The position numbers were made by a program, and so were the translations under genes. DNA of 64,000 nt from Spongiactinospora sp. TRM90649 (lineage in GTDB: Bacteria; Actinomycetota; Actinomycetes; Streptosporangiales; Streptosporangiaceae). Below are positions 55,410 through 62,225 of the stretch, in pieces. The DNA is taken from NCBI RefSeq assembly GCF_029382225.1, contig NZ_JARLTC010000002.1, positions 558,001 to 622,000 of the forward strand. Reading direction: 5' to 3'. A model generated the notes under the pieces. It did no database searches. It saw only the letters and a list, made by a program, of their open reading frames with translations, and had not been told where the DNA came from. Position 1 is the stretch's first letter, and each line of letters opens with the position of its first letter.

Positions 55410-56039
55410 GAGTACGGCCAGCACCCGCCGGTGGTCGTGCGGCCCCGCCTCCAGGCCGAGCTTGCCGAAGATGCTCGTGCAGTGCTTCTCCACCGTCCGC
55501 TCGGCGATGATCAGCCGTTCCGCGATGGCCAGGTTGGTGCGGCCCTCGGCCATCAGCCGCAGCACGTCCCGCTCGCGGGCGGTGAGCTGGATCAGCGGGT
55601 CGTCCGGCTGACGGTGCCTGCTCACCAGTTGCTCGACCACGACCGGATCCAGCGCCGAGCCGCCCGACCCGACGCGGCGGATCGCCGCCGCGAACTCCGC
55701 CAGGTCGGAGACCCGGTCCTTGAGCAGGTAGCCGATGCCCTCCACGCCCCCGTCGAGCAGCTCGACCGCGTAGCTGACCCGCACGTACTGCGACAGCACC
55801 AGCACCCCGACCTCCGGGTGCCGCCGCCGCAGCACGCGCGCGGCCCGCAGCCCCTCGTCGGTGTGGGTGGGCGGCAGCCGGATGTCGAGCACGGCGACGT
55901 CCGGGCGGTCCTCGGCGACGCGCTCCAGCAGGTCGTCCGCGTTGTCCACGGCGGCCAGCACCTCGTAGCCCGCCTCGCTCAGCAGCCGGGACATGCCCTC
56001 GCGGAACAGGGCGGAGTCCTCGCAGATGGTCACCCGCAC
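55392..56039 (-). CDS. NarL/LuxR-family response regulator
   Basis: 215 residues from a GTG at 56037-56039 overlapping the kinase stop by 10 bp; the GTG at 56033 (GTGA overlap) is an alternative start. Receiver domain ICEDSALFREGMSRLLSEAG with the phospho-acceptor Asp in VAVLDIRLPPTHT near residue 53. C-terminal LuxR HTH: LTARERDVLRLMAEGRTNLA, then AERTVEKHCTSIFGKLGL. Partner of the adjacent kinase. Confidence 0.92.
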   Translation of the reverse strand: MRVTICEDSALFREGMSRLLSEAGYEVLAAVDNADDLLERVAEDRPDVAVLDIRLPPTHTDEGLRAARVLRRRHPEVGVLVLSQYVRVSYAVELLDGGVEGIGYLLKDRVSDLAEFAAAIRRVGSGGSALDPVVVEQLVSRHRQPDDPLIQLTARERDVLRLMAEGRTNLAIAERLIIAERTVEKHCTSIFGKLGLEAGPHDHRRVLAVLRYLNA

Positions 56040-57721
56040 GGCAGCGTCACCGCGAGCACCGTGCCCATCCCCGGACGGCTGTCGAGGCGGAGCCGTCCGC
56101 CGTTGGCCTCGGCGCGGTGGGCCAGCCCCTCCAGCCCGGAGCCGAGGCGCGGATCGGCGCCGCCCCGGCCGTCGTCGCCGATCTCCACGACGAGGTGCCC
56201 GTCGCCCCCGGCCAGGCGCACCCACGCCCGGGTCGCCTCGGCGTGCTTGGTCACGTTGGCCAGCCCTTCGTTGACGATGTAGTAGGCCGCGCTCTCGACC
56301 GCCGGCGGCAGCGGCTCCGCCATGTCGATCAGGCACTCGACCGGAACCGGCGCGACCGCCGCCAGCTCCTTGACCGCCCCTGGCAGCCCGCGCTCGGTGA
56401 GCACCGGCGGATGAATGCCGTGGCTGACGGCCCGCAGGTCGTCCAGCGCGGTCAGCATGGCCCGCTTCGCCTCGCTGACCAAGGTGTCCTTGCGGTCAGG
56501 ATCGGTGGTGGCCTCGGCCAGGCCGAGGGTCATCGCCACCGACAGCAGCCGCTGCTGCACGCCGTCGTGCAGGTCTCGTTCGAGCTTGCGGCGCTCGGCC
56601 TCGCCCCACTGCAGCATCCGCGCCCGCGACGCCGCGAGCTGGCGCAGCCGCGCCCGCAGGTCGGCGGTCAGCCGTTCGTTCTCCAGCGCCAGCGCCGCCG
56701 CCGCGCAGGCGGCCTCGACGAGCAGCGGCTCCTCCAGCAGCCCCTCGTCGTGCAGCAGGACGGCCAGCCGCGACTCGCCCTGGTCCACCCGCGTCATCAC
56801 CCGGCCGCTGCCGCTCGGCGGCAGCTCCACCGGCCGCCCCTCGGCGTCGACGTATCGCCCCTGCTCCGCCATCCAGTACGCCACCCGCAGCGTCGGGTCG
56901 TACAGGGTCGTCGCCAGCGCGCTCTCCATGCCGTCCCGCTGCTTGCGGCCGCGTAATCGCACCACCAGGTCGGCCACGCGCCCGCGGTCCAGCCGGACCC
57001 GCATCAGGCTGGCGAGGTAGGCCAGCGGGATCGCCAGGAACGCCCCGAACATCACGGTGGCGGGCACCCGCCGCAGCGTCTCCGGCCCCCACGCCCAGAA
57101 GTTCCAGTCGACCACGAACGCGATCGTGGCGACGGCCGAGCTGAGCACCACCGGCATGGCCGCGCGCCGCTGGGCCGCGCCGCCCTCACGCCAGCGCACC
57201 GCGGCCAGTCCCAGAACGGCCGCCGCGGTGAGCATGATGAGCTGCCAGGACGCCTGATCGACGAAGGCCGCGACTGACCGCAACGGCCCCTCGGGCAGTA
57301 TCTCGACGGCGACGCCCGTCACCGGGAGGATCAATGCCTCGCCATAGCCGAAGCCTACGACGAGCCGGGACGGCAGGCTGCCGAGCCGTCCCGTCGGGAA
57401 GGCCAGGAACAGGTGGCAGCCGACCGCCGACCACACGCTGGACACCGGGTTCCACAGGAGCAGCAGGTAGGGCACATCGGGCTGCAGCCGGAAGATCTGC
57501 GGGATCCAGGCGATGCCGAAGGCCACCATGAGCGGCCCGACGCGGTTGCGCGGACGGCCGCGCCAGGCCACCACCCCCGCGTAGACGAAGGCCATGCCCA
57601 CCAGTTCGGCGATCCCCCAGGACGGCTTGCGGTCCAGCATGGGAAGGGTCACCAGGAGCAGCCAGCCCGCCGCCGCCACGGAGGCGAGCGTCGCGGTGCT
57701 GATGTTGGGCCGCCTGGTCAT
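56030..57721 (-). CDS. Sensor histidine kinase, HisKA_3 type
   Basis: 563 residues. The N-terminal half has about eight transmembrane helices (residues 10-245). A GAF-like linker follows, then the dimerisation box LERDLHDGVQQRLLSVAM with the phospho-acceptor His near residue 384, and a HATPase_c domain with NEGLANVTKHAEATRAWVRL and DDGRGGADPRLGSGL. Typical of NarX/DesK-type kinases. Immediately upstream of, and overlapping, its response regulator. Signal unknown. Confidence 0.92.
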   Translation of the reverse strand: MTRRPNISTATLASVAAAGWLLLVTLPMLDRKPSWGIAELVGMAFVYAGVVAWRGRPRNRVGPLMVAFGIAWIPQIFRLQPDVPYLLLLWNPVSSVWSAVGCHLFLAFPTGRLGSLPSRLVVGFGYGEALILPVTGVAVEILPEGPLRSVAAFVDQASWQLIMLTAAAVLGLAAVRWREGGAAQRRAAMPVVLSSAVATIAFVVDWNFWAWGPETLRRVPATVMFGAFLAIPLAYLASLMRVRLDRGRVADLVVRLRGRKQRDGMESALATTLYDPTLRVAYWMAEQGRYVDAEGRPVELPPSGSGRVMTRVDQGESRLAVLLHDEGLLEEPLLVEAACAAAALALENERLTADLRARLRQLAASRARMLQWGEAERRKLERDLHDGVQQRLLSVAMTLGLAEATTDPDRKDTLVSEAKRAMLTALDDLRAVSHGIHPPVLTERGLPGAVKELAAVAPVPVECLIDMAEPLPPAVESAAYYIVNEGLANVTKHAEATRAWVRLAGGDGHLVVEIGDDGRGGADPRLGSGLEGLAHRAEANGGRLRLDSRPGMGTVLAVTLPCG

Positions 57722-57836: not shown

Positions 57837-58709
57837 TCAGGAGGTGCGGGACCCCCGGTGGCTGCCGGTCAGCGTGGCGTAGACGATGACGTTGTCGGTG
57901 TAGTGCCCGGTCGAGCGGTTGTAGGTGCCTCCGCACGTGATCAGGTGGAGCTGCGCGTTGGTGCGGTCGCCATAGACCCGCTCGGTGGGGAAGGTGCGCT
58001 TGTCGGCCTGCTCCACGCCGCCCACGGTGAACACCGCGACCGTGCCGTCCTGGCGCCGCACCTCGATCTGGTCGCCGTAGCGCAGCTCGGCCAGCCTGCT
58101 GAACACCGCGCTGCGGGTGGCGGTGTCCTTGTGGCCCAGCATGATCGACGGCCCGGCCTCACCCGCCGTGGGCCCGTGACGGAACCAGCCCACCAGGTTC
58201 GGGTCATTGCCCGGCGGCACCTGGATCGTGCCGTCCTTGGCCAGGCCGAGCGACTTGATCGGCGCGTCGATGCCCAGCTTCTTGACCACCAGGCGCAGCG
58301 GGGTGGACGGCTGCATCGGTGGCGCGGGCTGGATCGGCGGAAGCGGCGGCGGCGCGGTGGGCGCCGCCTGGAACAGCCCGTTGTCGACCGACGGCTGCGC
58401 CTTGTGCGGAAGCTGGGTGCGCCCGTCGGTCAGGTTGTAGCCCGCCGGGTCGGCGATCATGAACAGCAGGCCCGCCACGACCGTCACCACCCCGGCCACG
58501 GCGGCCAGGATGAGGATCGACCGCAGCACCTTGCCGCCCTGCGGCCTGCCCGGCTGTTCGGGCTCCCGCCACTGCGGCTGCTGCTGGTAGTAGACCGGCT
58601 GGGGCTGGCCCTGCTGGTAGGGAGGCTGCGTGCCATACGGGACGGGATGGCCCTGGTAGGGATACCCGCCCTGCTGCGGGTATCCGCCCTCCGGAGGCTG
58701 CGTGGTCAC
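57837..58709 (-). CDS. Class F sortase
   Basis: 290 residues from a GTG at 58707-58709 with GGAGGGG 7 nt upstream. The cytoplasmic N-terminus (1-60) is rich in Gly, Tyr, Pro and Gln. A helix at about 62-84 anchors it. Catalytic His in MLGHKDTATR near residue 193, Cys in LITCGGTYNRSTGHYTDN near 258, and the Arg in that loop. Transpeptidase that links surface proteins to the wall. It follows its presumed substrate gene by 15 bp. Confidence 0.88.
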   Translation of the reverse strand: MTTQPPEGGYPQQGGYPYQGHPVPYGTQPPYQQGQPQPVYYQQQPQWREPEQPGRPQGGKVLRSILILAAVAGVVTVVAGLLFMIADPAGYNLTDGRTQLPHKAQPSVDNGLFQAAPTAPPPLPPIQPAPPMQPSTPLRLVVKKLGIDAPIKSLGLAKDGTIQVPPGNDPNLVGWFRHGPTAGEAGPSIMLGHKDTATRSAVFSRLAELRYGDQIEVRRQDGTVAVFTVGGVEQADKRTFPTERVYGDRTNAQLHLITCGGTYNRSTGHYTDNVIVYATLTGSHRGSRTS

Positions 58710-58724
58710 CGGCGGCCCCTCCGG

Positions 58725-59660
58725 TCAGCCCCGGGTCGCCGCAGTGCGCCGGCGCAGGAGCAGTCCGCCGATTCCCGCGCCGACCACGAGCACCGACCCG
58801 ACCAGCACGAACATCCGCCCGTCCGGGCCCATGTCGCCGCCGCCGCCGGTGGCCGCGCCGTCCTTGGGCGTCTTGTCGATCTGGCTGTCGGCCGTCACGG
58901 TGGCCGTCTTCGTGTTGGTACGGCGGGGCGTCGGCGACGTGCTGTCACTGGCGGTCGGGGTCGCGGTCGGCGTGGCGCTGGCGGTCGGCGAGCCCGTGCC
59001 GCCGACGGGCAGGTTCAGCGCCGGCCCCGCGCCGGCGGCGATGCAGTTGTAGTAGACCGTCGAGGTTCCGCTGCCCGACTTGAGCACGAAGCCCTGGCCC
59101 TGGAGGACGATCGTGCCTTCGCCGGTGGGCTGCAGGACCACGGCCATCGACGTGGGAATCGGCAGGTCGTCGGTCGTGGAGAGGGACTGCGTGGCGACCA
59201 CCGTGCCCTTGGCGACCGGGGTGGAACTCGCCACCGGGCCGCTGATCGACAGCGTGCCCTCGGCCGCGATCATGGCGCCGGACGCGATGGTGACCGGCGC
59301 GGGCAACGGGGTGCTCGTGGTGGTCGGGGTACCGCTGTTGGTGTCACTGGTCGTCGGCGTGGCCGACGGACTGGCGGTGGGCGACCCGGTGGCGGTCGAG
59401 CTCGTGGTGGGGCTCGCGCTGCCGCCGATCCGCCAGTTCACGGTGACCGCGGTATTGGGCTGCGGGGTGCCGGAAGGGCCGACCAGTTCCATCGGGAAGA
59501 CCACGGTGAGCCCCGGCTGCCCGTTGGTCGGCGTGCAGGTGTACTGGACATCGACCGGCGCCGCCAGCGCGGGGATCGCGCCGAACACGAGCCCGCACCC
59601 GATGGCTCCCAGGGCGGCGGTCTTCAGGGCGACGCGGCGTCGCGCCTTGGACTTCAGCAC
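58725..59660 (-). CDS. Secreted Ser/Thr-rich surface protein, probable sortase F substrate
   Basis: 311 residues. Signal peptide (RRVALKTAALGAIGCGLVFG ... ALAAP), a folded domain with the cysteine-containing strands YTCTPTNG and YYNCIAAG, two Thr/Ser/Pro linkers, then KDGAATGGGG, a hydrophobic helix VLVGSVLVVGAGIGGLLL and an RRR tail. This is the layout of a cell-wall sorting signal without LPXTG. The domain itself is unnamed to me. Directly upstream of a sortase gene. Confidence 0.7.
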   Translation of the reverse strand: MLKSKARRRVALKTAALGAIGCGLVFGAIPALAAPVDVQYTCTPTNGQPGLTVVFPMELVGPSGTPQPNTAVTVNWRIGGSASPTTSSTATGSPTASPSATPTTSDTNSGTPTTTSTPLPAPVTIASGAMIAAEGTLSISGPVASSTPVAKGTVVATQSLSTTDDLPIPTSMAVVLQPTGEGTIVLQGQGFVLKSGSGTSTVYYNCIAAGAGPALNLPVGGTGSPTASATPTATPTASDSTSPTPRRTNTKTATVTADSQIDKTPKDGAATGGGGDMGPDGRMFVLVGSVLVVGAGIGGLLLRRRTAATRG

Positions 59661-59841
59661 TGTCCCATTCTCCGTTTCAGCGGGGGCTCTCGGATCGACA
59701 GGCGGACCAGCGTGCCGGTCTTTAGTGATGACTCCAGTCAGATCCTATGAATAGATGATGCGAACAGGCACCCAAATACCGAAATCGGGCATAGATTCAT
59801 TCCCGCAACGGAAGATCGTTACGGGTGGTGATCGGGATGTC

Positions 59842-60834
59842 TCACCGAGTGCGCTTGGAGAGCGTCGCGTAGACGATGATGTTGTCGGTGTAGTGACCGG
59901 TCTTCGGGTCGTAGATGCCACCACAGGTGATCACCCGCAGGCTGGCGTCGTTGAGGTTGCTGTAGACGCGGGCCGTCGGGAAGGTGCTCTTGCTGATCTT
60001 CTCCACGCCGTCCACGGTGAATTCGACGATCTTGCCGTCGTTCCTGGCGACCCGGATCTTCTGCCCCCGCTTCACCTGGTTGAGCCGGTAGAAGACGGCG
60101 GGACCGGTGCGGTTGTTGACGTGCCCCAGGATCACGGCCGGGCCGATCTCGCCGGGCACCGGCCCGTACCGGTACCAGCCGCCCAGCTTCGGCCGGTTCA
60201 GCGGCGGCACCTGGATCTCGCGGTTCTGCTGCACGCCCAGTGACACCAGGCGGGCGGAGACCCCGATGGCCGGGATGGAGATGCGGGTGGGCCGGGTCTT
60301 CTCGGTCGTCTTCACCGGCGGCGGGGCCTTGACGGCGGGCAGCGGCGGCGGCGCGGCGGGCTCGGCCGGAGTCAGCGGCACGCCGGGGCCACCGGGGCCC
60401 ACCGTGGGCAGGGTCAGCGGGTCGGCCGCCTGCTGTACCGCCGCCGTCTGCGGGGCGGGCGGCTCGGCGGCCGGAGCGGCGGCGAGCACGCCCTCCTGGA
60501 CGGGAGGCGGGGCCAGGTAGGCGAGCAGCCCCGCCATGATCGCCGCGATCCCGCCGAGCGACACGACGATGAGGACGGCGGGCAGCACCGCCGAGCGCAG
60601 CCTGGCCTTCACACTCTGGCGGGCGGGCCTGCCGTACGGATCCTGTCCGAGCATGTGCCGGCCGGACGGGCCGGGGCCGATCGCGAACTGCTCGGGCTGC
60701 CCCGGGCCGAGCGCCGGCATCTGGGGCTGCTGGTAGGGCGCCTGGTACGGGTATTGATACGGCTGCTGGTAGGGCTGCTGCTGGTACGGCGGCTGCTCGT
60801 GAGGCGGCCCGCCGTACGGGCCCGGGTGGCTCAT
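59842..60834 (-). CDS. Class F sortase (second copy)
   Basis: 330 residues from the ATG at 60832-60834, overlapping the substrate stop (ATGA). Cytoplasmic N-terminus with a PYQQ-rich stretch (residues 17-40), a helix near 80-105, a Pro-rich stalk, then the catalytic domain: His in ILGHVNNRTG near 237, Cys in VITCGGIYDPKTGHYTDN near 303. Clear paralogue of the sortase at 57837 with a longer stalk. Confidence 0.88.
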   Translation of the reverse strand: MSHPGPYGGPPHEQPPYQQQPYQQPYQYPYQAPYQQPQMPALGPGQPEQFAIGPGPSGRHMLGQDPYGRPARQSVKARLRSAVLPAVLIVVSLGGIAAIMAGLLAYLAPPPVQEGVLAAAPAAEPPAPQTAAVQQAADPLTLPTVGPGGPGVPLTPAEPAAPPPLPAVKAPPPVKTTEKTRPTRISIPAIGVSARLVSLGVQQNREIQVPPLNRPKLGGWYRYGPVPGEIGPAVILGHVNNRTGPAVFYRLNQVKRGQKIRVARNDGKIVEFTVDGVEKISKSTFPTARVYSNLNDASLRVITCGGIYDPKTGHYTDNIIVYATLSKRTR

Positions 60835-62225
60835 CGCCCGCCTCCCGCCACGTGCGCTGCCCTGCGCCGGTGCAGCAGCAGGCCGCCCAGCACACCGCCG
60901 GTGAGCATCGCCACGCCCACGCCGATCAGCGGGCCGCCGGAGGGCGGTGTGGGCCCTTCACCGGTCTGCGGCGCGCCGACCGGGGTGATCTCCACCTGCG
61001 GGGTCGCGGTCGCCGTGACGGTGCGGGTGTTGGTCGGGCGCGGCGAAGCGGTGGCGGTGGCGGTCGAGGTGCTCGTGGAGGTCGCGCCGTTGCCGTTCTG
61101 GTTGCCGTTGCCGTTGCCGGTGTTGGACGGGCCAGGCGTGGTCGGACCGGTGTTGGTCGGACCAGGCGTGGTCGGGCCGGGGCCGGACGGGCCCGGGGTG
61201 CTCACGGTCGGGTCGGGGCTCTGCGTCACGCCGCCGCCGCTGCCCACGGTGATCTTGAAGGCCACGTTGGGGGTGTCGGGGGTGCAGACGGAACGGAACT
61301 CGGCGGGCGGGTTCTTCAGCTCGCGCGTGACGACCTTGAAGGCGTCCACGAACGCCCAGCTGTTGTCTTCGAGATTGGTGACGAGCAACGTGTGGTCGGC
61401 CTTGTAGGGCAGGTTGCGCATCTTCCAGATGGTGTATCCGCCCGCGTTGACCACGTTGACGTCGGTGCCGTCGTCGTTCTTGGACGGGTCGGCGGTGACC
61501 GGAACCCCTGGCTGGCCGTCGATCTTGAACTCCAGGTTGCCGCCGCGGTAGTCGCGCTCAGTGATGAAGTCCACGCCCGTCCCGGCGAACTTCAGCTCGA
61601 CGGTGGCGCCGCCCTTGGTGGTCGCGTGGACGTCGCGCCCCACGTCGTTGAAGCTGAGCGGCCGGTCGTTGTAGTCGCCCCACTCGGGACCGCTGTAGGT
61701 GATGCCCGCCTCGTCGTCGTTCACGATCTTCTCGCCCGCCGCCGGGGTGAAGTCGACCACCAGGTTGCGCGGCGAGATGCTGATCTCGCCCTCCTTGGTG
61801 GCCCCGACGGCGCCGGTGACCAGTGAGGGGAGCCGCAGCGGGTCGCCCACCCGCAGCTCCGGCTGGTCGATCGAGCCCTCGGCCGCGTCGTTGCCGGTCC
61901 ACGGCCCCTTGATGTTGAGGCGGCCCTTGCCGGACAGCTTGGACCCGGCGGCCAGGTAGCCCGGCGAGGTGAACGCGGTCTGGTCGCGGTACCTCAGATC
62001 CCACTTGACGTCGATCTCCTGGCCGACGGTCATCGTGGTCGGGGCCGTGATGGTCGCCCTCAGCCGGGTGCCCTTGCCCACGCCGTCCGTACACGTGTAG
62101 TCCAGTGCCACACCGACCGTGTCGGCCCCGGCCGGAGCGCCGGAGATCGCCACCAGCCCGCCACCGATCAGACACAGCACCGAACCGGCCACGGTTCTAC
62201 GGAGCCCAGTTCCCCAGCCGCCCAC
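60831..62225 (-). CDS. Large secreted surface protein, probable sortase F substrate
   Basis: 464 residues from a GTG at 62223-62225. Signal peptide of about 34 residues, a first domain (DYTCTDGVGKGTRLRATITA) related to that of the smaller substrate, then a jelly-roll-like domain with VELKFAGTGVDFITERDYRG and HTLLVTNLEDNSWAFVDAFK, as in carbohydrate-binding surface proteins. A Thr/Pro/Gly and Asn/Gly linker leads to TPVGAPQTGEG, a helix and HRRR. Coupled to the second sortase by a 4-bp overlap. Confidence 0.72.
   Translation of the reverse strand: MGGWGTGLRRTVAGSVLCLIGGGLVAISGAPAGADTVGVALDYTCTDGVGKGTRLRATITAPTTMTVGQEIDVKWDLRYRDQTAFTSPGYLAAGSKLSGKGRLNIKGPWTGNDAAEGSIDQPELRVGDPLRLPSLVTGAVGATKEGEISISPRNLVVDFTPAAGEKIVNDDEAGITYSGPEWGDYNDRPLSFNDVGRDVHATTKGGATVELKFAGTGVDFITERDYRGGNLEFKIDGQPGVPVTADPSKNDDGTDVNVVNAGGYTIWKMRNLPYKADHTLLVTNLEDNSWAFVDAFKVVTRELKNPPAEFRSVCTPDTPNVAFKITVGSGGGVTQSPDPTVSTPGPSGPGPTTPGPTNTGPTTPGPSNTGNGNGNQNGNGATSTSTSTATATASPRPTNTRTVTATATPQVEITPVGAPQTGEGPTPPSGGPLIGVGVAMLTGGVLGGLLLHRRRAAHVAGGGR

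Follow-up and report, generated by a model that had tools for sequence, protein, structure and literature searches.

Filamentous actinobacteria possess many class F sortases, whose physiological role is called unknown in papers published up to 2026. Two such enzymes are encoded in tandem in the window (the whole stretch of 64,000 nucleotides of Spongiactinospora sp. TRM90649 DNA that was analysed), each behind a secreted protein whose C-terminus carries no LPXTG, raising the question of which signal these sortases read. We favour, with a probability of roughly 0.86, the reading that the locus contains two dedicated class F sortase/substrate pairs derived from one duplicated operon unit, and that their sortases recognise a leucine-free signal. 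The analysis itself shows the gene order, the class F assignment of both enzymes, a conserved signal linked to class F throughout the phylum, the duplication, and the distinct sub-signals of the a and b pairs; recognition, the point of cleavage, wall attachment, and a preference of each sortase for its partner are inferred.

Organization of the locus

A preliminary description had placed two tandem substrate-then-sortase pairs at positions 57837-62225 of the window, and four minus-strand genes are indeed found there, in the order substrate b, sortase b, substrate a, and sortase a, with both sortases above the class F cut-off. Their features are the following:

60831-62225, minus strand: substrate b, 464 residues, a secreted surface protein in which a signal peptide and a YTCT first domain are followed by a carbohydrate-binding-like jelly roll, a stalk rich in Thr, Ser, Pro, Gly, and Asn, and the sorting signal
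61317-61739, minus strand: jelly roll of substrate b (residues 163-303), galactose-binding-like, resembling the CE2 N-terminal domain, CBM35, and CBM6
60954-60983, minus strand: sorting motif of substrate b, PVGAPQTGEG (residues 415-424), predicted cleavage after T421
60852-60917, minus strand: predicted membrane helix at the end of substrate b (residues 437-458), which leads into the basic tail HRRR
59842-60834, minus strand: sortase b (SrtF-b), class F, 330 residues, 200.9 bits with profile NF033748
58725-59660, minus strand: substrate a, 311 residues, a secreted surface protein in which a signal peptide and a YTCT domain precede the Thr/Ser/Pro stalk and the sorting signal
58839-58868, minus strand: sorting motif of substrate a, PKDGAATGGG (residues 265-274), predicted cleavage after T271
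58755-58808, minus strand: membrane helix at the end of substrate a (about residues 285-302), with RRR behind it
57837-58709, minus strand: sortase a (SrtF-a), class F, 290 residues, 204.5 bits with profile NF033748, a-type clade

Within pair b, the stop codon of the substrate and the start codon of the sortase overlap in the bases ATGA; 15 bases separate substrate a from sortase a, and 181 bases lie between the pairs. As had been proposed, both substrates appear as secreted, Thr/Ser/Pro-rich proteins ending in a helix and an Arg tail, signal peptide, stalk, helix, and tail being present in each. The C-terminus of substrate b reads TPVGAPQTGEG, helix, and HRRR, while that of substrate a reads TPKDGAATGGGG, helix, and RRR. 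Both proteins therefore display the architecture of a sorting signal, being secreted and ending in a motif, a hydrophobic helix, and a basic tail.

An acyl-CoA dehydrogenase gene adjoins the pairs in 92 of 105 related loci. A sensor histidine kinase gene comes after the pairs in the window (56030-57721) and in Spongiactinospora rosea, though not in the other 104 related loci; it was considered as a further component of the system and rejected, since it lies beside the pair in only 1 of the 105 related loci.

Regarding the ectodomain of substrate b, the predicted model of residues 163-303 shows the jelly-roll fold of CE2 N-terminal and CBM35-type domains, with Z-scores of 13.8 for 3nqh (rmsd 2.2, 112 residues aligned), 13.8 also for 2waa, and 13.4 for the CBM35 2w47. 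Profile PF17996 (CE2_N) gives weak matches in 11 of 28 substrate b orthologues. This closeness of the model to CE2 N-terminal domains and CBM35 makes a surface glycan-binding role plausible for substrate b.

Class, fold, and active site of the sortases

Both enzymes score well above the curated cut-off of 166 bits of the NCBI class F profile NF033748 and far below that of the class E profile (18.8 and 17.2 bits versus 160). They belong to the same profile family (NF033748 / IPR042001) as SrtF1-4 of Actinoplanes missouriensis and SrtF of Cutibacterium acnes. The genome of the strain encodes four sortases, all of class F, and no class E sortase scores above its cut-off in it.

SrtF-b consists of a cytosolic Pro/Tyr/Gln-rich tail, a membrane helix near residues 75-107, and a catalytic domain from about residue 175 on, the latter being modelled with pLDDT values of 95-98. 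A long tail of this composition precedes the membrane helix in SrtF-a as well. The SrtF-b model displays the sortase beta-barrel fold and resembles the class E sortase 9m2n (Z 17.4, rmsd 2.1, 130 residues aligned); a sequence search of the PDB returned no solved structure of class F. The catalytic His and Cys are kept in both window enzymes, and Asn occupies the Arg position (His238, Cys304, and Asn318 in SrtF-b), as it does in nearly all of the 303 class F relatives gathered here, in agreement with the Asn already reported for actinobacterial class F (PMC6998099). Three distant class F relatives from outside the class (L246, L247, and L248) keep Arg at this position; the idea that they pair with LPXTG proteins was rejected, no substrate-like neighbour being found at their loci.

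Class E enzymes and their LAXTG signals (Streptomyces SrtE1/E2) resemble the present system in being actinobacterial, in using a non-canonical signal, and in tolerating Ala at the second core position. They differ from the window enzymes and signals in that the catalytic Arg is retained, as is the Leu at the first position of the signal (PMC5148588).

Pilus-type (class C) sortases are often encoded beside their own substrate, and the arrangement of the locus might thus suggest that its sortases polymerise their substrates into a fibre, instead of attaching single molecules to the wall. Nonetheless, both window enzymes are described much better by class F than by class C (13.8 bits for SrtF-b versus a cut-off of 160), and each pair comprises a single substrate and no ancillary pilin gene, making fibre assembly extremely unlikely. 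Two dedicated class F pairs, each with a single substrate predicted to be anchored to the wall, remain the preferred reading.

A leucine-free signal in front of the C-terminal helix

GAPQTG and DGAATG are found in substrates b and a, respectively, where the LPXTG/LAXTG consensus would be expected, and the stretch of substrate a corresponding to GAPQTGEG of substrate b is GAATGGGG. The signal-spanning stretches of the two window pairs, both of the GAxTG type, are ITPVGAPQTGEGPT and DKTPKDGAATGGGGDM. LPXTG signals (PF00746, Gram_pos_anchor) share with them the succession of motif, hydrophobic helix, and basic tail, as well as a T-G at the predicted cleavage point, but the window signals lack Leu and show an extended motif with an upstream Pro and a downstream Gly. 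PF00746 matches neither window substrate at an E-value of 1 or better, and matches 4 of 28 substrate b orthologues weakly.

Upstream of every sortase of the genome (4/4) lies the gene of a secreted protein that ends in a helix and an Arg tail, and the corresponding pre-helix sequences (PVGAPQTGEG, PKDGAATGGG, PTKAPRAGGG, and PDYGPATGGG) align without gaps. The preliminary description had suggested the consensus GA-x(0,1)-x-TG-x-G; the motif is real and conserved, but its optional residue proved unnecessary, given this gapless alignment. The two window substrates share the ungapped motif P-x-x-[GA]-[AP]-x-T-G-x-G, whose core in LPXTG terms is [GA]-[AP]-x-[TA]-G, accompanied by the upstream Pro and by a Gly soon after the predicted cut. 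The consensus is better written without a gap; a conserved Pro stands ahead of its core, a second Gly is frequent, and A or S is allowed for T.

When the genome was searched with a profile of the signal, the four known substrates and a fifth protein were retrieved ahead of a gap in E-values from 2.8e-11 to 3.8e-4, only the fifth being informative because the other four belong to the training set of the profile. This protein (G000:C71:3512-3652; 1489-2394 of locus L416, minus strand) shares the architecture of the four: it is secreted, contains a YSCT domain, and ends in TPIGGASTGGGGDAGPDGR, helix, and RRR. No sortase gene is adjacent to it, and the sortase acting on it is probably encoded at a different locus.

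Conservation beside class F sortases in Actinomycetota

Class F sortases were gathered from the family, the class, and the phylum (303 non-redundant enzymes), and their neighbours were picked solely by position, signal peptide, helix, and basic tail. The pattern P-x-x-[GAS][AVPIM]x[TA]G was found in 158 of the 171 class F neighbours of the family versus 3.4 expected in shuffles, a family count that contains many orthologues and hence does not represent independent events. The pattern as literally given in the preliminary description was found in 77 of the same 171 (0.9 in shuffles). Outside the family, a matrix trained on family members recognised 38 of 52 neighbours, and 54 of 75 in an enlarged, non-redundant set from elsewhere in Actinomycetota thinned to <60% identity, the threshold in both cases being one that 0.54% of shuffles pass. 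When the regular expression was widened slightly to admit H and P as well, it matched 60 of these 75 neighbours (4.7 expected), and unseeded motif discovery with 44 sequences returned PxGG[VA]xTGxG with a score of 336.6 versus 127.0 for shuffled input. Chance or composition as the source of the motif is rejected by the shuffles together with the unseeded discovery. Conservation of GA..TG.G next to other class F sortases, on which the original proposal had been made to depend, is thus observed in the family, in the phylum, and at the four sortases of the genome.

An upstream candidate was not detected for 32 of 215 sortases of the family and 36 of 88 others, partly because of short flanks. Control proteins with a C-terminal helix located away from class F sortases numbered only 14 and gave one match, L134, a protein close to the end of its locus that is a class F-type substrate in its own right. 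Class E sortases were also considered as a matched control, but their 30 loci offered only 2 candidate neighbours, neither of them convincing, so that no class E comparison is possible. A variant signal, P-T-R-[IV]-D-[AT]-G-x-G, is seen beside lower-scoring class F relatives (L288, L334, L335, and L336).

The stretch is Gly-rich, sits at the end of a low-complexity stalk, and varies in parts (T may be A or S, and G may be A or P), features also expected if P-x-G-G-A-x-T-G-x-G were a mere flexible spacer before the helix of genuine substrates, with the sortase cutting elsewhere or reading some other feature. However, its position-specific conservation lies far above that of composition-matched shuffles, P, T/A, and G are held in proteins with differing ectodomains, and its register fits the x-x-x-T-G of LPXTG. 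A spacer is therefore unlikely, and the stretch is better regarded as the signal recognised by class F sortases.

The only class F enzyme studied biochemically, that of C. acnes, is reported to use LPXTG (cited in PMC13257024), while the window enzymes adjoin leucine-free signals; class F may therefore hold more than one specificity. If the enzymes considered here acted like that of C. acnes, their neighbours would be plain membrane proteins. Yet L[PA]xT[GA] occurs in these neighbours at or below chance, in 1 of 171 within the family (3.1 expected) and in 1 of 75 outside it (1.3 expected), which bears out the earlier claim of a non-LPXTG signal in which Gly/Ala replaces the Leu of LPXTG/LAXTG. 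Moreover, two Acrocarpospora loci (L094 and L097) have a protein with a canonical ELPKTGDG between a class F and a class E-type sortase, and L097 has, upstream of its class F sortase, a further protein with PLGGAATG. LPXTG specificity is thus very unlikely for these enzymes, and, as judged from sequence comparison, class F sortases most likely read P-x-G-G-[A/V]-x-T-G-x-G instead. The gene order at both Acrocarpospora loci is class F sortase, secreted ELPKTGDG protein, and class E-type sortase, a natural contrast of two sorting systems side by side.

No earlier description of the signal was found in the literature searched, in which Malik & Kim 2019 and Di Girolamo 2019 are represented through citations only and could therefore already mention the motif.

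Duplication and divergence of the pairs

The YTCT first domains of substrates a and b, suspected from the outset to be related, are homologous according to hhalign, with a probability of 98% and an E-value of 3e-13, where column-shuffled controls reach a probability of 0.18% at best, and the sortases split into two well-supported clades, a and b. Both observations together uphold the proposed duplication and divergence, and tandem pairs recur across the family. The sub-signals also differ after the predicted cut, where b substrates show TG-E-A-P and a substrates TG-G-G-G, a third conserved signal group being PTRAP[RH]AGGGG. A clean difference between the a and b sortases lies in the two residues that follow the catalytic His, K-D in a and V-N in b, which are candidates for determining partner preference. 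More broadly, it seems slightly favoured that most actinobacterial class F sortases combine the code P-x-G-G-[A/V/P]-x-T-G-x-G with a His-Cys-Asn site, and that divergence of the tandem pairs has given each partner its own version, TG-G-G-G in a and TG-E-A-P in b, matched by sortase differences such as these two residues.

Signals beside the sortases of Actinoplanes missouriensis

Deletion of all four srtF genes of A. missouriensis gave no phenotype in a 2026 mBio study (PMC13251363), a result that counts against the favoured reading. Its authors remarked on the gene context of AMIS_11010 (next to srtF1) and AMIS_36440 (next to srtF4), but set both proteins aside as they found no sortase motif in them (PMC13251363). 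The A. missouriensis loci were matched here by sortase sizes (273, 240, and 247 residues) and gene positions. The SrtF1 neighbour carries PARGPATGGG (C-terminus PARGPATGGGGTAP, helix, RRRRIG) and the SrtF4 neighbour PKGGVDAGGG (C-terminus PKGGVDAGGGSGAE, helix, GRRPRA). AMIS_11010 and AMIS_36440 thus resemble the window substrates in being secreted, in having a C-terminal helix with a basic tail and a class F neighbour, and in containing the signal; they differ in that, no known motif being recognised in them, they had previously been discounted as substrates of sortases. PGGVPSGDGG is found in the SrtF3 neighbour, and PRGGAQTGYGG, without a helix in frame, in that of SrtF2. The latter predicted substrate (L410) stops right after LPRGGAQTGYGGLAVGG, pointing to a truncation or frameshift.

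Proposed mechanism and implications

Each substrate would be exported by means of its signal peptide, and its C-terminal helix and Arg tail would then hold it at the membrane and present it to its own membrane sortase, which would prefer this partner. The sortase would recognise P-x-[GA]-[GA]-[A/V/P]-x-T-G-x-[G/A], the core standing for LPXTG with Gly/Ala at the Leu position, and would most likely cut between T and G through Cys304 and His238, Asn318 taking the place of the Arg of other classes (residues numbered as in sortase b). The cleaved substrate would finally be transferred to a cell-wall precursor.

The substrate screens in the literature rely on LPXTG-type patterns or on PF00746 and miss this leucine-free signal, and such a tag, being unlike LPXTG, would explain why class F targets were overlooked. 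A defined consensus turns orphan class F enzymes into testable enzyme/substrate pairs and supplies candidate substrates for the existing A. missouriensis srtF mutants, the signal being, in addition, a possible ligation tag distinct from LPXTG.
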